Origin: a virus
Virus record (IMG/VR): IMGVR_UViG_3300045051_000275
Span: 1-42,008 of that record
Direction: 5' to 3' (one strand)
DNA length: 42,008 bases
The notes beneath the pieces were generated by a model. That model did no database searches. It had not been told where the DNA came from and saw nothing but the letters and a program-made list of their open reading frames with translations. Shown one piece after another: positions 26,838 to 38,159 of the stretch; the stretch's first letter is position 1, and each line of letters begins with the position of its first letter. Position numbers and translations under genes: made by a program.

Positions 26838-27220
26838 GCCGCCCCCCGCCCGAGGATGGCGGCGTCTTCCGCGAGGATGACCGCCAGAACCTCTGGCGAC
26901 GCCCCCGCGGCCCATGCCGCCCCTACGCTGCCCGGAGCCTCCTGACGCCCGCCAGGGCCAGCAGCAGGCCCATCAGCGCGAGGGCGGGCCAGTCGAGCGT
27001 CGGGACGGTCGCCGTCGGCACGTTGGCGCAGTGACAGGTGCAGCGGCCCGTCTCCGGCGTGACGGCGCAGAACAGCGTCTGCCCCGGCCCGCACGGGACG
27101 GCCGGCATGATGCAGTCGGACGGTTTCATCGGCTCTCTCCTTGGGGGCGAACCGGCCCCCTGCCGGTCGTGTGGGGTCGAAGGTGAAGTCGGACGTGGGA
27201 CAGATGGCGTCCGGGGTCAT
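26834..27220 (-). CDS. Hypothetical protein overlapping a nested gene
   Basis: A 128-residue frame that begins with an ATGA overlap on the replication initiator stop and ends with an ATGA overlap on the next gene, exactly like its neighbours. The first 30 residues (MTPDAICPTSDFTFDPTRPA) and the last 27 (GASPEVLAVILAEDAAILGR) look like real protein, while the middle is Arg/Gly/Ala-rich and reads like an out-of-frame shadow of the nested 68-residue gene. Either the two genes share the DNA, or an older gene was interrupted. Confidence 0.4.
   Translation of the reverse strand: MTPDAICPTSDFTFDPTRPAGGRFAPKERADETVRLHHAGRPVRAGADAVLRRHAGDGPLHLSLRQRADGDRPDARLARPRADGPAAGPGGRQEAPGSVGAAWAAGASPEVLAVILAEDAAILGRGAA
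26923..27129 (-). CDS. Small Cys-rich protein with IPTL-CTERM-like sorting tail
   Basis: A 68-residue protein with a clear AAGGAG 7 bases before its ATG. Residues 1-36 hold six Cys (positions 6, 13, 21, 30, 32, 34). The C-terminus has a VPTLDWPA motif, one transmembrane helix (LALMGLLLALAGV) and a basic RRLRAA end, the three-part layout of IPTL-CTERM sorting signals recognised by exosortase-type enzymes in some Gram-negative bacteria. There is no N-terminal signal peptide, which true exosortase substrates have. It lies wholly inside another frame. Confidence 0.65.
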   Translation of the reverse strand: MKPSDCIMPAVPCGPGQTLFCAVTPETGRCTCHCANVPTATVPTLDWPALALMGLLLALAGVRRLRAA

Positions 27221-28071
27221 GCCGCCCCCTCCTCGTCCTGAGCGTCGGGGTCAGGGGGCAGTGGGTTGCCTCCCCTCAGCCACTCGTCCATCGCCAGGAC
27301 TGCGGCGTTGGAGACGTACTCCCTTGCCCGTAGCCTGCGGCGCACCTCGAGCATCCAGTCGGGCATCGGGTCGGTGCGCTCCTGCTCGGGCTGTGCCTCA
27401 CGGTGCGAGCCGACGAGGGCGCGCTGGCGCTCGATGGGGCGTGGCTGGGCCTTGCCCTGCCAGCGGTGGTAGCAGGTCTTGGCGCAGCCCTTCCAGTCCT
27501 TCACGCCGGGCCAGCCCTTCGATTCGTACCAGCCGTGGGCCGAGAGGGCGTCGGGCATGGGCCAGTCGGGGAAGGTCTCCCGGACGTACGCGACCCAGTC
27601 CCCCTCGCTGGGGGGCGTGAACACGCCACCGCTTCCCATTCCCTTTACTTTCCTTTCCTTTCCATTCCTTTCCTTTCCGCACATCGGCCGCTTCCCCACT
27701 GCTTCCCCATTGCTTCCCAGTTGCTTCACTACTGCTTCCCCGTCGCAGGGGGACGGAAATTCGGACGCAGCCATCGCTTCCTTGCCACCGATCCGCTGGT
27801 GCCGGCGGAAGGACCGGACCTCGATGTATCCGCGCCCGTCGACCGTGTACCGGGTGATGAAGCCGTGCTCGTGGAGGGCGTCGAGGAGGGCGTCGGTGTC
27901 CGCCTTGTCGTACGGCAGCACCTCGACGCCGATACGGACGGGCCTGTCCTCGAGGCGCCCTTCGCCGTCCGCCAGCCCCCAGAGGCCGACGAACAGCAGC
28001 CGGGCGAGAGGTGGGAGGGAGGCCAGCTCGTCGTCCTTGAAGAACTCGGGCTTGATGGAGCGGATCCTCAT
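27217..28071 (-). CDS. Replication initiator / replisome organiser
   Basis: A 284-residue protein. The N-terminus (MRIRSIKPEFFKDDELASLP, then ARLLFVGLWGLADGEGR) is the widespread winged-helix start of phage replication proteins, with a second strand-helix element (YIEVRSFRRHQ) to residue 92. Residues 105-150 are low-complexity and basic, encoded by iterons and a polypurine tract. The C-terminal part holds a Trp/Tyr-rich domain (YESKGWPGVKDWKGCAKTCY) that may load the host helicase. No polymerase or DnaB homologue is encoded, so host machinery is presumably recruited. The internal repeats make this a lambda O-like gene with its origin inside. Confidence 0.82.
   Translation of the reverse strand: MRIRSIKPEFFKDDELASLPPLARLLFVGLWGLADGEGRLEDRPVRIGVEVLPYDKADTDALLDALHEHGFITRYTVDGRGYIEVRSFRRHQRIGGKEAMAASEFPSPCDGEAVVKQLGSNGEAVGKRPMCGKERNGKERKVKGMGSGGVFTPPSEGDWVAYVRETFPDWPMPDALSAHGWYESKGWPGVKDWKGCAKTCYHRWQGKAQPRPIERQRALVGSHREAQPEQERTDPMPDWMLEVRRRLRAREYVSNAAVLAMDEWLRGGNPLPPDPDAQDEEGAA
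27631..27744. other. Putative replication origin: iterons plus polypurine tract inside the initiator gene
   Basis: Five tandem 11-bp units of consensus GCTTCCCCANT (plus strand) start at 27690, 27701, 27712, 27723 and 27734; a further similar unit starts at 27631. Between them, 27641-27680 is eight pentamers close to TCCTT, leaving the coding strand as a long AAGGA polypurine run and locally poorer in GC than the genome. The 11-base period is not a multiple of three, so it was kept at the DNA level. This matches the lambda arrangement of iterons beside an A-rich region inside gene O. Confidence 0.65.
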
Positions 28072-28464: not shown

Positions 28465-28651
28465 TCGTCATCTCCTCCATCGCAGCCGAGCGCACGGCGT
28501 CGGCGCGTGACGGGTCGCCCCAGGGCCTTCCGAGGAGCGTCCCGAGTGTCGTGATGTAGTCGGCCTGTCGCTGGTACTTGTCCTCGGATCGCCCGAAGAC
28601 GCGGTCGCGGACGGTGAGGACGTTGCCGAGGGTGAGCGGTTCAGGCAGCAT
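28457..28651 (-). CDS. Hypothetical small protein
   Basis: A 64-residue protein from ATG 28651, overlapping the nuclease gene by 11 bases. It has NVLTVRDRVFGRSEDKYQRQ and a short Pro-containing turn, mainly helical and charged. No family recognised. Probably a nucleotide or DNA metabolism accessory, by location only. Confidence 0.5.
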   Translation of the reverse strand: MLPEPLTLGNVLTVRDRVFGRSEDKYQRQADYITTLGTLLGRPWGDPSRADAVRSAAMEEMTNG

Positions 28652-28946
28652 CGCGCCCCTCCACGAAGGTCACGGAGCGGATGGCCTGCTCGGCGCTCTC
28701 GACGATGAAGACGGGTGCGCCCCGCCAGCGCTCGATCCAAAGCTCCTCGTCGGGTGTCAGGGCGCGGGCGCTCTTCGGCTTGGAGCCGTCCTTCACTTCG
28801 AGGAGGAACGTCCGGCCCGCGCAGCCGACGAGGAGGTCGGGGCAGCCCTTGCCGATGTCGGCGAGCGACTGGACGAACGCCCCGATCTGGCGCAGAGCGG
28901 CGACGATCTCCTTCTGGTTGGAATCGACCCTGCCGCGCCGCCTCAT
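28641..28946 (-). CDS. VRR-NUC-type nuclease
   Basis: A 101-residue protein with the core of the VRR-NUC domain: KGCPDLLVGCAGRTFLLEVK, with Asp36 in the G-x-PD motif and Glu50/Lys52 as the E-x-K of the PD-(D/E)XK superfamily, preceded by a helix with QKEIVAALRQ. These stand-alone nucleases occur in many phages and may process Holliday junctions or flaps during replication and recombination. ATGA overlap with the upstream gene. Confidence 0.85.
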   Translation of the reverse strand: MRRRGRVDSNQKEIVAALRQIGAFVQSLADIGKGCPDLLVGCAGRTFLLEVKDGSKPKSARALTPDEELWIERWRGAPVFIVESAEQAIRSVTFVEGRDAA

Positions 28947-29140
28947 TCCTGCCCCCCGAACAGCCCGAGCTGGCTGCGCATCCACTCGGCCTCCTCTGCG
29001 AGCCGCTGGCGGTAGGCTGCGAGCGCCTCGCCGGCCTCGCGGTATGTGCCGTGCTCTGAGACGACGCGGGCCTGCGGGTCGAGGAGGGCGTCGAGTTCGA
29101 CGCCGGTGCGGTCGGCGATGCGGTAGACGCACCAGCTCAT
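28943..29140 (-). CDS. Hypothetical helical protein
   Basis: A 65-residue protein with a beta-type start (SWCVYRIADRTGVELDALLD) and a long C-terminal helix (REAGEALAAYRQRLAEEAEW). It is wedged by 4-base overlaps between the methyltransferase and nuclease genes. No known domain. Confidence 0.55.
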   Translation of the reverse strand: MSWCVYRIADRTGVELDALLDPQARVVSEHGTYREAGEALAAYRQRLAEEAEWMRSQLGLFGGQE

Positions 29141-30063
29141 GCCGCACCCTCGAATAGCCCGCCCTGCACGCCATGAGCCGCCCGCAGGTTCCGCACGGCC
29201 TGCTCGTAGTAGCTGCGCTTCAGCTCGACGCCGATGAACCTGCGCCGCTCCTGAAGCGAGACGAAGCCCTCTGAGCCGATCCCCGCGAACGGCGACAGGA
29301 CGACGTCGCCGGGGTTCGACCAGAGGATCATCCCGCGCCGTATCACCTGAAGCTGAAGCGGGCAGATGTGCCGCTCGTCGGCGTTCTCGCGGGCGCTCTG
29401 ATACTGGAGCGTGTCGCTCGGGTTGATGTCCATCCATACCGGAGAGGCCCACTTCTGCCACTGCTCGACGGGGAACTCCTCGGCCGAGTGCGAGACGAAC
29501 TCCTCGTTGGCGTCCGGCTTCCGCATCGTCACGAGGTAGTCAGGTAGGCCCATCCTAGACATGGACGAGTCCTTCTTGATCTGCTTCCAGAGCAGCCCGA
29601 GCGCCTTCGTCCGCTGCATCGCCGTGACCGGGTCTTTCCAGATCGTGACCTGCGAGTGCAGCACCCATCCGTGCGCCTCGAAGGCCCGGATCAGCGCGCC
29701 CCGGAAGTCACGAATGCCGATCACTCCGTGCCGCTCCTTCGACATCGGCAGGTCCATGCAGTGAAACGACACCAGCCGGCCCGGCGCGATCACGCGGAAC
29801 AGCTCGGCAATCAGGTGGTCAAGGTGCGCGAAGAACTCGGCGTCGTCGCGGCTGTTCCCCATGTCGCGGTCGCTCGCGCTGTAGGTGTAGAGCGAGGCGA
29901 ACGGCGGGGAGAAGATCGAGTAGCCGACCGACTCGCTCGGGATGCCGCGCAGCACTTCGACGCAGTCGCCCTGGTACATTGCCCACCCGTCCTCGATGTG
30001 CTGGTCCAGAACCTTCACGTCGGCTGGGTTTGCGTCCACAGTGCTCAGGCGGCCCTTAGCCAT
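29137..30063 (-). CDS. DNA methyltransferase, amino-type (N6-adenine or N4-cytosine)
   Basis: A 308-residue protein with the beta-class permuted order: catalytic motif IV YSIFSPPF at 49-55 first, and the AdoMet-binding motif I (VVLSPFAGIGSEG) near residue 265, with a closing FIGVELKRSYYEQA. The SPPF variant of (D/N/S)PP(Y/F) is more common in N4-cytosine methylases but N6-adenine cannot be excluded. No restriction enzyme is nearby, so it is an orphan enzyme likely shielding phage DNA. ATG 30063 overlaps the helicase 3' end by 19 bases; it is the first plausible start. Confidence 0.82.
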   Translation of the reverse strand: MAKGRLSTVDANPADVKVLDQHIEDGWAMYQGDCVEVLRGIPSESVGYSIFSPPFASLYTYSASDRDMGNSRDDAEFFAHLDHLIAELFRVIAPGRLVSFHCMDLPMSKERHGVIGIRDFRGALIRAFEAHGWVLHSQVTIWKDPVTAMQRTKALGLLWKQIKKDSSMSRMGLPDYLVTMRKPDANEEFVSHSAEEFPVEQWQKWASPVWMDINPSDTLQYQSARENADERHICPLQLQVIRRGMILWSNPGDVVLSPFAGIGSEGFVSLQERRRFIGVELKRSYYEQAVRNLRAAHGVQGGLFEGAA

Positions 30064-31430
30064 TCGGGAATCCTCATCGTCTGGCGCGGCTGGTAGGCCG
30101 TGCGGCTGCTCTTGTGCCCGCGCACCTCGTCCATGACGAACGCGCGGACGTGCTCTGCCATCGCCTCGTGCATCTGCGCAGCGAGGGCTTCCTTCCGGCG
30201 CAGGTTGGCGACGACCTCTCCCTCGGCCTCGGACGTGATGACGTGGCACTCGACGGGCCGCTTCTGCCCGAACCGCCAGCATCGCCGGACGGCCTGATAG
30301 AACGCCTCGAACGAGTGCGTCACGCCAACGAACGCCATGTTCGCGGCGTGCTGCCAGTTCAGCCCGTAGCCCGCGATCGACGGCTTGGTGACGATCACGC
30401 GTGCGCGACCGGCCGCGAAGTCGGCGAGCTTCGCTTCCTTCTCTTCGATGTCCATGTCGCCGCGCACCTCGACGGCCCCACGGATCGAAGACGCGAGAGC
30501 CGCGCTCTCGGCGTTCAAGTCGCACCAGACGACCCACGGGTCCGTCGATTCGTTCGCCAGCTTCGCCGCGAGCGTCACGCGGTCGGAGAGCGACGCCCGC
30601 CGGGCCTGCCGCTGCTCCTGAAGGGTCAGGGCGTTCAGCGCGAAGAGCAGCCCCGCGTCATCCGGGCCGGACTCGACGACGTGCTGCCGGATTGTCAGCG
30701 GCGGCAGGAGGAACGCGCCGTCGTCGTATCCGAGGTCGCTCGGACGACGAAGGGTCGCAGCCCAGGACGAGAGCCACTTCCAGAACGGCGTCTGCGCGTG
30801 GCCCTTGAGCCGCCACGAGGAGGTGTCGCCTCCGTCGTGGACGAAGAACTCGGAGAGCATCTCCACCCGCGAGCAGATGCCGAGGAACTCGGCGTGGTTC
30901 CCGAGTTCGGAATGGTCGTTCGGTGCCGGGGTCGCGGTGCAGGCGAGCCGGTACGGCGTGCCCGAGAAGGTCTTGATCAGCTCCGAGCGGGTCTTGCCGT
31001 CGTAGCTCTTCAGGATCGACGACTCGTCGAGGACGATCCCGCGAAACCGCCACGTCTCGAACTTGTGGAGCCGTTCGTAATTCGTGACGACGAGGACGGC
31101 GTCCTCGGGGAACCGCCCGTCCTTCGACTCGACGGCCGGGACGCCGCAGACACGGGCCTCGTTGACCGTCTGCGCCGCGACGGCGAGCGGGGCGAGGATC
31201 AGGACGGGCCGCTCCGTGTAGGCCGCGACCTGCCGCCCCCACTCGATCTGCACGCGAGTCTTCCCGAGGCCGGTGTCGGCGAAGACAGCCCCGCGCCCGC
31301 GACGGACGGCCCACCGGACAAGGTCAGACTGGAAGTCGAAGAGCGGCGACGCGATCGGCATCGGGTCGAAGCCGGACTCGGGCTGACGCCACTGCTTCGC
31401 ACGGAGGAAGGCGGCGTAGTCGCGGCTCAC
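30045..31430 (-). CDS. SF2 (SNF2/DEAD-type) DNA helicase
   Basis: A 461-residue helicase from GTG 31430 (GTGA overlap). Motif I ADTGLGKT at 51-58, motif II LDESS at 134-138 (DE-S-S instead of DEAH), motif III TATPAPND near 165-172, and motif VI QAVRRCWRFGQ near residue 395. This set is typical of phage helicases encoded beside replication initiators, likely unwinding or remodelling DNA at the origin or during recombination. The spacing matches single-polypeptide SNF2-like phage helicases of about 450-500 residues. Confidence 0.88.
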   Translation of the reverse strand: MSRDYAAFLRAKQWRQPESGFDPMPIASPLFDFQSDLVRWAVRRGRGAVFADTGLGKTRVQIEWGRQVAAYTERPVLILAPLAVAAQTVNEARVCGVPAVESKDGRFPEDAVLVVTNYERLHKFETWRFRGIVLDESSILKSYDGKTRSELIKTFSGTPYRLACTATPAPNDHSELGNHAEFLGICSRVEMLSEFFVHDGGDTSSWRLKGHAQTPFWKWLSSWAATLRRPSDLGYDDGAFLLPPLTIRQHVVESGPDDAGLLFALNALTLQEQRQARRASLSDRVTLAAKLANESTDPWVVWCDLNAESAALASSIRGAVEVRGDMDIEEKEAKLADFAAGRARVIVTKPSIAGYGLNWQHAANMAFVGVTHSFEAFYQAVRRCWRFGQKRPVECHVITSEAEGEVVANLRRKEALAAQMHEAMAEHVRAFVMDEVRGHKSSRTAYQPRQTMRIPEWLRAA

Positions 31431-32176
31431 TCTCCCCCCTCCCGCATCGGCACGAGGTTGACGCCGGTACACTGGTTCACCTCCAGCGTCCTCAAGATCG
31501 CCCTCCCGATGGCTTCGACGACCGGAACGCAGACCGAGTTGCCGAGTGCCTTGAGGCGATGTCGGTCCAGCCGTCCGGAAAGCCCATCTGCCGCTCCCAG
31601 TTCTGCGGAGTGACGACCGCCGTCCTGCATCCCGGCCACTTCTGCATAGACGGGCAAGACTGGTTCGCGGTCGCCGTCGGCGTATGCGAGAACCCAGAGG
31701 CGCGACCGCCGATGATTGAATCCGACGGCACAAGCCGGAATTTCAAGCGGTGGCGCGACTTCGTAGCCGAGACCTTCCAGGTCAAGAACCACCTCATCGA
31801 GTGCCACCCCGTCCATGTGAGGCACGTTCTCGCCCAGGACGAAGCTAGGCCGGGCCTCGTCAACAAGGCGGCGCATCTGAGGCCAGAGGTAGCGGTCATC
31901 AGACGTGCCTCGTCTCCGACCTCGTGAAGCTGAAGAAAACGGTTGGCAAGGGAATCCGCCAGCGATGACGTCAACCGTCCCTCGAAAAGCTCGCCCGTCG
32001 AGCGAGGAGACGTCTCCGAATACCGGGACGCCCGGCCAGTGCTTCTCGAGGACCGCCCGGCAGAACCTGTCCCGTTCGCAGAACGCGACGGTGCGGAACC
32101 CGCCGGTTCGTTCAAGCCCGAGGCTGATGCCGCCGATGCCGCTGAACAGGTCGAGGACGCGGAGCGGGGCATTCAC
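31427..32176 (-). CDS. dcm: Compact DNA (cytosine-5) methyltransferase
   Basis: A 249-residue enzyme from GTG 32176. Motif I LDLFSGIGGISLG, motif IV GGFPCQPFS with catalytic Cys77, motif VI GENVPH, motif VIII NHRRSRLW and the closing KALGNSV are all present. Only about 45 residues separate motif VIII from motif IX/X, so the target-recognition region is nearly absent, much shorter than in Dcm or HhaI; the enzyme is far below the usual 330-400 residues. No partner restriction enzyme is encoded. Its last 11 residues (TGVNLVPMREG) match those of the gene before it, and the DNA ends are direct repeats. Confidence 0.85.
   Translation of the reverse strand: MNAPLRVLDLFSGIGGISLGLERTGGFRTVAFCERDRFCRAVLEKHWPGVPVFGDVSSLDGRAFRGTVDVIAGGFPCQPFSSASRGRRRGTSDDRYLWPQMRRLVDEARPSFVLGENVPHMDGVALDEVVLDLEGLGYEVAPPLEIPACAVGFNHRRSRLWVLAYADGDREPVLPVYAEVAGMQDGGRHSAELGAADGLSGRLDRHRLKALGNSVCVPVVEAIGRAILRTLEVNQCTGVNLVPMREGGE
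31436..31469. repeat. Direct repeat flanking the dcm gene, copy 1
   Basis: 34 bases matching copy 2 (32179-32212) at 28 positions, starting with an exact CCCCTCCCGCATCGG. Encodes the C-terminal TGVNLVPMREG of the methyltransferase on the minus strand. Confidence 0.7.
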
Positions 32177-32553
32177 TCCCCCTCCCGCATCGGAACCAGA
32201 TTCACCCCGGTAAGTGCGATCCGGATCTGGGCCGCGACGGTCAGCGGAGAGATCAGGTCGTGCGGGCGCGAGGCGAGGTTGGCGGCGATCCGGTCGACGC
32301 GGCGCAGGGCGTCGAGCTGGGCGAGGTTGGCGTCGGCGAGGAGGGTGAGGTGCTGCCGAAGGGTGACGGGGTTGTCGGAGGGGTGAAGGGTTCGTGACGG
32401 TGCCGTTTCGGTCGCGCACGACGCCCCCGGATGGGTCGGCGTGCCCCCGGATGGGTGATCGGGGCCGATACCTACGCTATCCTCGGATGGTGCGGTGTGC
32501 TGCTCTGACCTCTCCGAAGTGGAGGGCGAGCGCGGGTAGGTCGCGTCAGGCAT
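32173..32553 (-). CDS. Hypothetical protein between integrase and dcm
   Basis: A 126-residue protein whose ATG overlaps the integrase stop by 8 bases. The first 60 residues are Ser/Thr/Pro-rich and disordered; residues 65-110 form a helix (LRQHLTLLADANLAQLDALR); the last 12 (LTGVNLVPMREG) are almost the same as the end of the methyltransferase. It may have gained its 3' end by the duplication that flanks dcm. Function unknown. Confidence 0.55.
   Translation of the reverse strand: MPDATYPRSPSTSERSEQHTAPSEDSVGIGPDHPSGGTPTHPGASCATETAPSRTLHPSDNPVTLRQHLTLLADANLAQLDALRRVDRIAANLASRPHDLISPLTVAAQIRIALTGVNLVPMREGE
32179..32212. repeat. Direct repeat flanking the dcm gene, copy 2
   Basis: Second copy of the 34-base imperfect repeat, 743 bases from copy 1, which is almost the length of dcm. 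It encodes the C-terminal tail of the preceding hypothetical protein. Confidence 0.7.
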
Positions 32554-33739
32554 TACGGATGCTCCTCGGCCGGAAGGCGGCCGGTGCCGTGGACGGTTTC
32601 GTATCGAGAGCAGCACGGACGAGGTCGACGGTTTCGCCGCCCGGTCGTGCGTACCGCTCGGTCGTGCGCGTCGAGGCGTGCCCGAGCGCGCGGGCGATCA
32701 CCTGGAGGGGGACGCCGGCCGTCGCCAGCCGCGAGGCGAACGTGTGCCGCAGGTCGTGGAAGCGGAGCCGGCGCGTGATGCCGGCAAGGCGCTTGGCCGT
32801 CTCGAAGTGGGCCTTGATCTGCGACGTACAGACGGGCTTTCCGTGGGGACCGATGAATACGCGCTGCCCGACGACGGCGCGGGCCTTGACCTCGTCGAGA
32901 GCGGCGCGGCACGCCTCGGAGATGGGGATCACGGACTCGACGCCAGTCTTCTGCCGGGGCAGGGACAGCACCTCGCCCTCGACGTCGGCCCACGTCAACG
33001 CCTTGAGGTCGGAGAGCGACAGGCCGGTTTCGAGCGCGACGATGAAGAGCGGCTTCGACGCACGGAACAGGGCGAAGCGGACGCCCGCCGCCTCGCCGTC
33101 GGGACGGGGTACGGCGTTGACCGTAGCGCCCCGGTCGATCCTGACGACGCGCTCCTCGCCGAGCATCCGGCGGAACCCGGCCTCGTCGTCGAACGCGGCG
33201 AGGAACCGCTCGCGCTCCTCGTCGGGCATCTCCAGCGACAGCGGGTCGGCCTTGCGGGTCGGAAGCCGGCGCGACAGCGGGTAGAACGGGATCTCCCGGC
33301 GCGAGGCCGCGTCGTTCAGCACCTTGCGGAGCGTCGAGAGCGTGTGGTTGACGGTGGACGGCGCGAACTTCAGCCCGACAGCCACGTCCTTCACGTCTGC
33401 GTCGGTCAGCTTCGCGAGGGGCTTCTCCCCGATCACGGCGACGAGCCGGCGCACGTCGAGGCGGAACGCCTTGGCCGCTGCCGGGGCGAGCGTGGCGGTC
33501 AGCTTGCGGTCGAAGGCGGCGCAGTAGGTCCGAAGCGTCCAGACCGTAGCCCTGCCGTCGCGCGCCCCGAGTTCGGCCTTGAATCGGGCGTACTCCTCGA
33601 CGGCCTGCTCCCGGTCACGAACGGCGACGGTGCGCTTGCGGCGGACGCGGCCGGCGGTGCCAGGGATGCAGACGACGAAGGACGCCTTGCCTTTGCGGGA
33701 GTCGTAGTAGAAGCCGGCGGCGCGGAAGGCTTTCCTCAC
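32546..33739 (-). CDS. int: Tyrosine-type integrase
   Basis: A 397-residue tyrosine recombinase from GTG 33739 (GTGA overlap). It has an N-terminal arm-binding-like region (FYYDSRKGKASF), a core-binding domain (residues 65-160) and a catalytic domain with Lys264, His328 and Arg331 (RFHDLRHTFASR), His354 (LGHAS) and the nucleophile Tyr363 (RYARP). The first catalytic Arg, normally in TG-L/M-R, is Ser241 here (ETGLSLSDLKAL). A small excisionase-like gene lies 0.2 kb upstream. The attP site was not identified; the surrounding DNA is fully coding. Confidence 0.88.
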   Translation of the reverse strand: MRKAFRAAGFYYDSRKGKASFVVCIPGTAGRVRRKRTVAVRDREQAVEEYARFKAELGARDGRATVWTLRTYCAAFDRKLTATLAPAAAKAFRLDVRRLVAVIGEKPLAKLTDADVKDVAVGLKFAPSTVNHTLSTLRKVLNDAASRREIPFYPLSRRLPTRKADPLSLEMPDEERERFLAAFDDEAGFRRMLGEERVVRIDRGATVNAVPRPDGEAAGVRFALFRASKPLFIVALETGLSLSDLKALTWADVEGEVLSLPRQKTGVESVIPISEACRAALDEVKARAVVGQRVFIGPHGKPVCTSQIKAHFETAKRLAGITRRLRFHDLRHTFASRLATAGVPLQVIARALGHASTRTTERYARPGGETVDLVRAALDTKPSTAPAAFRPRSIRNA

Positions 33740-33927
33740 CTGGGGTACTCCTCGCACGCGCCCGGCCGGTGAGGGAACACCCAGCATACCCGCGTGTCTC
33801 GCGAGAACGAATCGTTGTCGCGCCACTTGCCGAGCCTCTTCCCGCACGACGCGCAAACGAACGTATCGGTGGCTTCGAGCGCGGTTACGGCTTGGGCCTT
33901 TGTGGGTTCAACGCGAACGATGCTCAC
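33736..33927 (-). CDS. Zinc-binding protein upstream of integrase
   Basis: A 63-residue protein from GTG 33927, with CASC at 24-27 and further Cys at 48 and 57, a possible zinc site around a Trp/Asp-rich loop (RLGKWRDNDSFSRDTRVCW). It is coupled to both the excisionase-like gene and int, so it may be an accessory of integration or excision. No homologue recognised. Confidence 0.6.
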   Translation of the reverse strand: MSIVRVEPTKAQAVTALEATDTFVCASCGKRLGKWRDNDSFSRDTRVCWVFPHRPGACEEYPR

Positions 33928-35695: not shown

Positions 35696-36294
35696 GGCTG
35701 GCCTCCCGCGAGGGCGGCGCGGGCGCGACACGAGGCGCACGGCCCCGCAGCCTTCATGTCAACGCACGTCCCGCCCCATCCGATCTTGATCAGCCAGCAC
35801 GGGTGCTGCCCAATCTCCCGCAGCGCCGCCTCGTAGCGGGCGGCGCGGGACTCGGCGGCGATCAGCCCGCGAAGCCTCGCCACCCCGCGCTCGAACTGCT
35901 CCTCGCCGTAGGTGTCTCCGACGCCCAGAAGCCGCTCTAGCTCGTCGCGCATCGCCCAGCGGCGATCCGCCGTGAATCGGTAGCTGTCGCGCTCGGTCTC
36001 GGCGGCTTGCAGCGCCCGGAGCCGCTCCATCCCAGCCTCGAACGCGCCGGGTTCCATCGTGTCGCTGACGCCGAGGATCTCCTCGAACTCGCGCCGCATC
36101 CCGACGCGAACGGACAGCGACGCCTCTGCGGACCACGCACGCTGGAGCGCTGCGTTCTTCTGCGCCTCCAACTCCGCGCACCGCGCCTCGGCGGCGGCGA
36201 GCCTCGCTTCGGCGTCGAGCGCGCGGTTCTGGTAGTAGGACAGGCGCGACTCCAGATCGGCGGGAGACAGGCCGTGGTCGTCAGATCGGCTCAT
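35692..36294 (-). CDS. Coiled-coil protein with internal duplication
   Basis: A 200-residue protein. Residues 12-60 form a coiled coil (ALDAEARLAAAEARCAELEA). Two similar segments follow, REFEEILGVSDTMEPGAFEA (68-87) and DELERLLGVGDTYGEEQFER (117-136), each ending in MERLRALQAAE or VARLRGLIAAE, about 49 residues apart. The C-terminus has CVDMKAAGPCASC, a possible metal site. ATG overlaps the upstream gene by 14 bases. Perhaps a structural scaffold for DNA metabolism; unproven. Confidence 0.6.
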   Translation of the reverse strand: MSRSDDHGLSPADLESRLSYYQNRALDAEARLAAAEARCAELEAQKNAALQRAWSAEASLSVRVGMRREFEEILGVSDTMEPGAFEAGMERLRALQAAETERDSYRFTADRRWAMRDELERLLGVGDTYGEEQFERGVARLRGLIAAESRAARYEAALREIGQHPCWLIKIGWGGTCVDMKAAGPCASCRARAALAGGQP

Positions 36295-36715
36295 CGTCGC
36301 TGCCCCAGCCGGACGCGGCGGTCGTCCTGCTCGGCTTCCAGCCCGACCGCAGCCGCTTCGCCCAGCCCCGCGCGCGCGAGGCGTCGAGCCGCTGGTACTT
36401 GAGTTTCTTCTGGTCCTCCTCGGTCTTGCCCTCGTTCGTCGAGCAGAAGTAGTCCAGGCGATCGGCGACCATGTCGAGGTACTCCGGCGGGCATTCGCTG
36501 AACCGCTTGCCGCGCATCGTCGGGCCGGTCCAGTCGCGGGGGTCCTTCGCCTTGACCTCGGGGTCGCCGTACTTCCCGTCGAGGTCGGCGTCGGAGGCGA
36601 CACGCTGTCCGCGCTCCGGCTCCGCGTTCCCGCCCTTGACCAGATGCAGGTCGAGGAGCGTCTTCAGCGACTCGTCGATCGACTTGAGGACGGCGAGGAT
36701 CTCGGACTCGCTCAC
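36281..36715 (-). CDS. Conserved phage recombination/replication accessory protein with acidic tail
   Basis: A 144-residue protein co-translated with the exonuclease-annealase gene (GTGA overlap). A helical start is followed by DLDGKYGDPEVKAKDPRDW and FSECPPEYLDMVADRLDYF, a pattern I associate with a conserved phage protein found near recombination genes, and an acidic C-terminal tip (GSDDEPI) similar in character to SSB tails that recruit partner proteins. It may be a single-strand DNA or RecT partner; this is inferred from location and tail. Confidence 0.6.
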   Translation of the reverse strand: MSESEILAVLKSIDESLKTLLDLHLVKGGNAEPERGQRVASDADLDGKYGDPEVKAKDPRDWTGPTMRGKRFSECPPEYLDMVADRLDYFCSTNEGKTEEDQKKLKYQRLDASRARGWAKRLRSGWKPSRTTAASGWGSDDEPI

Positions 36716-38139
36716 GCCGCCACCCGCTCGTTCTGCTCGCGCATGTCGGTCAGCTCCTCCGGCGTATAGAGGCCCGCGAGGAGGTCGGGGTAGACGAGGC
36801 GCGCGAGCCTGGCCTGCGCGCGGGCGACGAGCATGTCGGTCGGGTTCTTGCCCCAGCCGGACTTCGCCCAGGCGTCCTCGGACTTCGGCCACGCCTGCCG
36901 GGCCATCTCGATCGTGTGCGTCAGGCGGACGGGGCTCCGCGCGCCCTTGCGCTTCGTCTCGAAGGTGGCCTGCTTCTCGTCGAAGGAGATCGGCTCGAAG
37001 AACTCGGCGAGGCCGGACTTCATGACGAGCGCGGCCATGAGCGAGGCGGACAGCGTGTGCTTGCCGTCGAGGTTGTGGATCGACCGGAGCGATGCCATCG
37101 CCGGGAGACCCAGCTCGCGGCCAACCATGACCGTCGAGAGGACGCCCTGCGGCGTGCCGTAGGAGCTGAACATCCGCGAGTCGAAGAGGTCGCGGGCGAG
37201 CTTGCGGGCCTGCTCCATCGAGCGCGGGTCGAGCTGCCGCTCCCACTCGGGCGGGGCGGGGGCGAGGACTTCGGCCTCGCGCACGGCGAGGGTCGTGACG
37301 TTCTGCGGGGCGGGGGCGGGCTCCTCGACGATCTCCACGGTCTTCTCCTCCTCGGCGACGAACTCCGCCGCCTCTACGGGCACCCTCTCCTCGAGCACCT
37401 CGTCGAACGGGATCGCGGCATCGAACCGGAGCGAGACGAGCTGCTGCACGGTCTCGACGCGCGGGGCGAACTCCTTGAGCGACTCCACCTCGGACGGCTT
37501 GAGCGGCGACGGCTGCGCCTCGGCGGCGGCGTAGAGGCTCGCGATGTCGCCGTGGACGAAGAGGAGCTTGGCGGCCGTCTTGGGGCCGATGTTCCGAGCG
37601 CCCTTGATGTTGTCCGCCGCGTCCCCGACGAGGGTCAGGTAGTCACGGACCTTCGCGGGCGGCACCCCGAGCTTCGCCTCGACGGCGGCCTCGTCGTACT
37701 CCGCGCCGGTCGCCGGGGACTTCACGCGGACGGAGGGCGAGACGAGCTGGAGGAGATCCTTGTCGGCCGAGACGACGAGGACCGTCATGCCGCGCTCGGT
37801 CGCGATCTTCGTGGCGGTCGCGATGAGGTCGTCCGCCTCCATGCCGGGCTGCGCCCAGACGGGGAAGCCGTCCGCGGCGAGGCGCTCGCGGGCGACGTCG
37901 ATCTGGTGCATGAGGGTCGCGTCGCGCTCGCCGCGCTGCGCCTTGTAGGCCGGGTCGATCTCGGCGCGGAAGCTCTTGCCGGAGTCGCAGCAGACGGCGA
38001 CGTGGGGCTGGCCGGTGGCGAGGGCGCGGACCTTCGCGACGGTCGCGGTGGAGACGTGGTTCACGTCCGGATCGTTGCCGGACATGTGGAAAATGGGATA
38101 TGCGATCGAACTGAGGTCGATCAAGACGAGGTCGGGCAT
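36712..38139 (-). CDS. 5'-3' exonuclease (FEN/PolA type) fused to RecT-like single-strand annealing protein
   Basis: A 475-residue protein with AAGGAGAG before its ATG. Residues 1-245 are a FEN/PolA-type 5' nuclease with metal ligands Asp8, Asp52, Glu101/Asp103/Asp104 (MEADDLIAT), Asp126/Asp128 (SADKDLLQL) and Asp173/Asp176 in VGDAADNIKGARNIGPKTAA, which is also its helix-hairpin-helix. Residues 250-295 are an acidic Pro/Glu linker. Residues 300-465 resemble RecT-family annealases: VMVGRELGLPAMASLRSIHN, LDGKHTLSASLMAALVMKSG, WGKNPTDMLVARAQARLARL, YPDLLAGLYTPEE. One chain would both resect an end and anneal the strand. No other RecE/Exo-type nuclease is present. Confidence 0.82.
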   Translation of the reverse strand: MPDLVLIDLSSIAYPIFHMSGNDPDVNHVSTATVAKVRALATGQPHVAVCCDSGKSFRAEIDPAYKAQRGERDATLMHQIDVARERLAADGFPVWAQPGMEADDLIATATKIATERGMTVLVVSADKDLLQLVSPSVRVKSPATGAEYDEAAVEAKLGVPPAKVRDYLTLVGDAADNIKGARNIGPKTAAKLLFVHGDIASLYAAAEAQPSPLKPSEVESLKEFAPRVETVQQLVSLRFDAAIPFDEVLEERVPVEAAEFVAEEEKTVEIVEEPAPAPQNVTTLAVREAEVLAPAPPEWERQLDPRSMEQARKLARDLFDSRMFSSYGTPQGVLSTVMVGRELGLPAMASLRSIHNLDGKHTLSASLMAALVMKSGLAEFFEPISFDEKQATFETKRKGARSPVRLTHTIEMARQAWPKSEDAWAKSGWGKNPTDMLVARAQARLARLVYPDLLAGLYTPEELTDMREQNERVAA

Positions 38140-38159
38140 CTCTCTCTCCTTTGCTCTGG

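Follow-up and report, generated by a model that had tools for sequence, protein, structure and literature searches.

Can one phage gene carry both a resecting nuclease and a strand-annealing protein, and if so, how would the two halves of its product work together? The question is raised by an open reading frame on the minus strand of a 42,008-nucleotide viral stretch (IMG/VR record IMGVR_UViG_3300045051_000275, positions 1 to 42,008; hereafter the window), in which an earlier note, made from the DNA letters and their translations, had recognised a FEN/PolA-type nuclease and a RecT-like domain in a single polypeptide. The window derives from a temperate-type tailed phage with a tyrosine integrase, a replication initiator, a Holliday-junction resolvase, methyltransferases, a terminase and a portal protein. 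The replication initiator, the Holliday-junction resolvase-like endonuclease and the tyrosine integrase are encoded on the minus strand at 27220–28071, 28644–29174 and 32549–33856, respectively, and no DNA polymerase was found among the window ORFs tested. Two methyltransferase genes, also on the minus strand, lie by the integrase: one of N6/N4 type (29140–30537; PF01555, 5e-15) and one of C5 type (31430–32419; PF00145, 6e-37).

A FEN-type nuclease, an acidic linker and a RecT-type core in one gene

Our analysis confirmed that the reading frame at 36712–38139 (minus strand) is one gene encoding a FEN-type nuclease, an acidic linker and a RecT-type core. The coding part (36715–38139, stop codon at 36712–36714) comprises 475 open codons from an ATG and specifies a protein of 475 aa. 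A good Shine-Dalgarno sequence (aaaggagagagagATG) precedes the start, and the ribosome-binding site region (aaaggagagagag) was placed by sequence inspection at 38140–38153 (minus strand). Both halves matched family profiles, and homologous complete fusions occur in six other contigs, so that seven contigs bear out the single polypeptide described in the earlier note.

The nuclease half (residues 1–248; 37396–38139, minus strand) matched PF02739 over residues 3–157 (E 8e-33) and PF01367 over residues 158–245 (E 2e-17), both above the curated cut-offs, which places it among the 5'-3' exonuclease families against which a profile search had been proposed. Its best NCBIfam score was for the N-terminal part of DNA polymerase I, and a profile search of the PDB returned M. 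smegmatis PolA, ExoIX, Taq, M. smegmatis FEN and T5 FEN. In an alignment with Taq and M. smegmatis PolA as references, the nine acidic metal ligands of Taq corresponded to D8, D52, E101, D103, D104, D126, D128, D173 and D176. These residues are invariant across the six complete fusions of our alignment (A6) and are also found in the L119 sequence, in agreement with the claim that the nuclease is complete and has its metal-binding Asp and Glu residues in place. The arch motif (Y65-K66-x-x-R69) and the H3TH motif (GDxxDN...IGPKTAA) are present as well. The AlphaFold model had a pLDDT of mostly about 90 for nuclease residues of about 90–250, and the nuclease model matched ExoIX with a TM score of 0.81 over 251 columns; FENs were matched as well.

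The two halves are joined by an acidic, low-complexity linker (residues 249–296; 37252–37395, minus strand), which is variable in the alignment and has a pLDDT below 50 in the AlphaFold model. Measured between profile ends it is about 48 aa long and contains 12 D/E, 3 K/R and 7 P, in keeping with the acidic Pro/Glu linker noted earlier. Among the fusions the linker spans 38–85 aa, is variable in sequence and is either acidic or Pro/Ala-rich. It ends in a semi-conserved AVREAEVLAPAP segment, which may be a relic of the N-terminus of a stand-alone RecT. The linkers of two fusions, L091 and L093 (locus 1–837), contain a Cys/His cluster (KCDGNHGAPPCADPRCWQGH and KCDGTHVRPRCDDPQCW), possibly a zinc knuckle, that is not seen in the window protein.

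The C-terminal half (residues 297–475; 36715–37251, minus strand) was assigned to the RecT/Redβ family of annealing proteins. PF03837 (RecT) matched residues 390–470 at 24.3 bits against a cut-off of 24 (27.9 bits for the domain alone), a match in the C-terminal half only; L119 taken alone fell below the cut-off. The PHROG RecT families 4171 and 561 matched the domain at about 7e-16. With these matches in PF03837 and PHROG, the one outcome named beforehand as refuting the RecT assignment, a domain without any RecT or annealase profile match, did not occur. A PDB search using the fused RecT domains alone gave no relevant match; only the broader profile, built from fused and stand-alone relatives, found λ Redβ177 (7ujl, E 9e-5), in an alignment that spans Redβ W143 to R161 plus the AGIY/AGLY end of the core. 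The contacts of Redβ with the template strand are made by R128, W143, H153, K154 and R161, of which R161 is critical (PMC9512822). W429, R440 and R447 of the window protein align with Redβ W143, K154 and R161 and do not vary among the complete A6 fusions; the position of H153 is taken by Ala. In the AlphaFold model, obtained from eight sequences, the RecT half is of low confidence (pLDDT about 30–70); the order of its helices and three strands would be compatible with a Rad52-like fold.

Proposed activity of the fused protein

The RecT core has stand-alone relatives in actinophages at about 26–33% identity (Propionibacterium Anatole gp38, Gordonia Twinkle gp58, Arthrobacter Kukla gp53 and Thermobifida P1312_078). 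Unlike the fusions, in which only 1–6 aa follow the core, these proteins are unfused, carry a C-terminal tail of 59–152 aa and have a gene for RecE or exodeoxyribonuclease VIII adjoining or nearby. In the six loci examined (Anatole, Twinkle, Kukla, P1312, MenE and BIM BV-113), the RecT gene lies directly or one gene downstream of RecE, exodeoxyribonuclease VIII or a Cas4-type exonuclease, and the order of nuclease, then annealase, is common to the fusion and to all six. Another setting was seen in Salinibacter phage 12_10, where gene 57 (L086, 4923–5936; annotated as hypothetical) encodes a stand-alone RecT homologue that ends in EDADGELPF, an acidic, SSB-like tip; no annotated nuclease adjoins it, and about 185 records of Salinibacter phages contain relatives.

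In Redβ, residues 1–177 are enough for annealing, and residues 178–261 bind λ Exo and possibly other proteins (PMC9512822). Redβ truncated at its C-terminus keeps annealing activity but loses recombination altogether (PMC5052646), and in LiRecT the disordered C-terminal residues are believed to make up a partner-binding domain of this kind (PMC9772228). The simplest reading of the tail-less core is that a covalent tether has replaced the docking domain of the annealase.

We consider it probable that the gene encodes a single-chain phage exonuclease/annealase recombinase with a tether in place of docking. At the ends of phage DNA, at gaps or at forks, the PolA-like FEN nuclease would degrade the 5' strand; the RecT core, attached by a flexible acidic linker, would take up the 3' strand laid bare in this way and anneal it to a homologous one. 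In two-gene systems a separate C-terminal docking domain holds the annealase to the exonuclease; here the covalent tether would do so. An overlapping small gene, described below, probably supplies the remaining contact, for instance with host SSB-binding proteins or the fork, by means of its acidic tail. Both activities, the direct hand-over of resected DNA and the role of the partner are what we infer from sequence.

The nuclease may instead act after annealing, removing 5' flaps or RNA primers at the replication fork or in crossover intermediates, with the single-stranded DNA being supplied by host nucleases. The flaps and primers would arise when the RecT domain anneals strands, and their removal would resemble nick translation by PolA. 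We regard this as the main rival because PolA-type nucleases are flap-specific, and rate it as possible, if rather unlikely. FEN/PolA nucleases favour flaps, PolA-type enzymes also trim flaps and remove primers, and we know of no long processive resection by this family. The closest relatives of the nuclease half, namely the PolA N-terminal domains, M. smegmatis FEN and ExoIX, are structure-specific flap enzymes, and Redβ and RecT can act on the lagging strand at the fork (PMC5052646). Against a trimming role, the fusion occupies the position that recE-recT pairs have in relatives, and no other end-resecting exonuclease of the families tested was found in the records. The profiles of YqaJ/λ-Exo (PF09588) and DUF3799 (PF12684) were without a match in the window, as the earlier note had read it, and in the seven fusion records; the absence of a second nuclease is not absolute because IMG/VR contigs are of uncertain completeness. 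Moreover, FEN-family nucleases double as 5'-3' exonucleases, and resection and trimming can coexist in one protein.

Distribution of the fusion and its partner gene

Scans of IMG/VR yielded six further complete fusions (L004, L003, L090, L091, L102 and L119) and two that are cut by contig ends: L093/L096, with a fused RecT and the end of the nuclease, and L103, with the start of the nuclease. Identity to the window protein ranges from 51 to 75% in the nuclease and from 58 to 86% in the RecT core. A Foldseek search against predicted viral structures matched the UniProt protein A0A6J5MUB0 of an uncultured Caudovirales phage over its full length (472 columns, 41% identity). This protein is named for its PIN_53EXO half, the RecT half being absent from the name, and is, to judge from its predicted structure, very probably the same fusion. 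The search for the same fusion in other phages, as suggested in the earlier note, was thus successful. Among cultured-phage and plasmid records none carried the fusion over 80% of the query length, and two scans of GTDB genomes with peptide motifs of the RecT domain found no fusion; these motifs were exact and eight residues long, and prophages may be missed by them.

In the loci retrieved, all RecT domains of this clade that belong to complete genes are fused. The fusions score at least 214 bits, whereas the next-best RecTs reach at most 79 bits and are unfused, and in the tree the fused RecT domains cluster as a single clade (support 99/99). Divergence of the nuclease and of the RecT domain is correlated across pairs (r = 0.65 for pairwise identities, from few members). 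When the window was compared with L004, dN/dS was about 0.22 (0.108/0.480) in the RecT core, 0.36 (0.209/0.583) in the nuclease and 0.73 (0.453/0.617) in the linker. Purifying selection acts on both domains and far more weakly on the linker, which is a tether.

An exposed linker of low complexity might also be a place at which two products arise, the full-length protein and a free RecT core made from an internal start or by proteolysis, in which case the fusion would serve co-expression, not coupling. GTG268 of the window and ATG269 of L004 follow a few bases after runs of the GGAGGAG type. The Shine-Dalgarno-like run, however, is a by-product of Glu codons in the acidic linker, and the five other complete fusions lack it. 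In the loci retrieved a stand-alone gene of this RecT clade was not found, and we consider this explanation improbable. A frameshift or base error at the junction of two genes, the second refuting outcome named in the earlier note, is excluded, and misassembly is rejected with it: six further contigs, from different metagenomes, are fused in frame with diverged sequences and linkers that differ in length and sequence, and A0A6J5MUB0 has the same layout.

Downstream of the fusion lies a partner gene of 144 aa (36281–36715, minus strand), whose GTG start overlaps the fusion stop codon (GTGA). It is kept in all eight fusion loci with downstream sequence, directly after the fusion in seven and one gene further in the eighth (G007). 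In that locus (L136, 12915–14732, minus strand) the fusion is followed by a 300-aa protein without a Pfam family, the partner and then a NinB/λ Orf-like protein, which scored 22.5 bits with PF05772, just under the cut-off of 23.8. The C-terminal domain of Redβ has been reported to resemble λ Orf.

The partner has a conserved core (D-L-D-x-x-Y-G-(D/N)-P...P-R-D-W...S-x-C-P...A-R-A-R-G-W-A) and matched no family in Pfam, NCBIfam or PHROG. Its predicted fold is helical, of low confidence (AlphaFold pLDDT 64), and the model had no significant match in the PDB. The earlier note had seen an SSB-like acidic tail and a possible third partner. The acidic part of this description holds: the window copy ends in GWGSDDEPI, and most copies end in, or close to, an acidic stretch. 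The exact tip of bacterial SSB, DDDIPF, is confined to L090 (5556–6038), whose partner protein ends in RDDDIPF. Co-occurrence in eight of eight loci agrees with a third partner, but one that is predicted to be helical and is not an SSB by profile. A classical SSB was ruled out for the partner by its lack of PF00436 and other Pfam matches, and PF00436 had no match in the seven fusion records. A speculative role for the partner is that of a helper in contact with the fork or with host proteins that bind SSB.

Thirty-one ORFs of the window were compared with four long fusion-bearing contigs at an E-value threshold of 1e-4. G003 and G007 have only the fusion and the partner gene in common with the window; G005 adds a weak methyltransferase stretch, and G006 a methyltransferase and a small ORF. 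The methyltransferase encoded at 29140–30537 has a 46% relative in G006. At this threshold the window has none of its terminase, portal, tail, integrase and replication genes in common with the four contigs. As almost nothing else is shared, the fusion gene and the partner gene seem to be transferred together between unrelated phages, as far as incomplete contigs and the 1e-4 threshold allow this to be judged.

The fusion among known recombination systems

Taking these observations together, we lean towards a natural recombinase that resects and anneals with one chain: a repair-type FEN nuclease, in place of RecE, would be covalently linked to a minimal RecT core that lost its docking domain. 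A dedicated small helper protein would accompany it, the two genes forming a recombination cassette that unrelated phages have in common. The parts belong to known families; a FEN nuclease and a tail-less RecT in a single chain were not found described. The earlier note knew of no well-described single-chain system, and the open-access literature searched likewise held no account of an exonuclease and an annealase in one chain, whether FEN-RecT or another; a description elsewhere may exist.

It has long been asked why a phage annealase has to bind its own exonuclease physically: the mixed pairs RecE/Redβ and Redα/RecT do not work (PMC5052646). A protein with a tether for docking allows a direct test, by cutting, lengthening or swapping the linker, and makes the hand-over from exonuclease to annealase amenable to study in one chain. 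The fusion also suggests that a FEN/PolA-type nuclease can replace the λ-Exo fold, and it may offer a way to recombineer double-stranded DNA with one compact gene.

λ Exo/Redβ and Rac RecE/RecT (SynExo, EATR) likewise couple a 5'-3' nuclease to an annealase of the RecT/Redβ family. They consist of two polypeptides, whereas the fusion is one ORF in seven contigs; λ Exo and RecE have the PD-(D/E)XK fold and the fusion nuclease the FEN/PolA fold; and the annealase of the two-gene systems has a C-terminal exonuclease-docking domain that the fused annealase is without. A FEN-type 5' nuclease works with an annealing protein in phage recombination in T7, as gp6 exonuclease and gp2.5. Those are two proteins, and gp2.5 is an OB-fold SSB and not a RecT, in contrast to the single chain with RecT seen here. 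The N-terminal 5' nuclease of PolA, ExoIX (Xni), M. smegmatis FEN and T5 FEN share with the fusion the H3TH motif and the ligand set of Taq PolA. In PolA this nuclease domain is joined to a polymerase, and ExoIX, M. smegmatis FEN and T5 FEN stand alone; in the fusion it is joined to an annealase.
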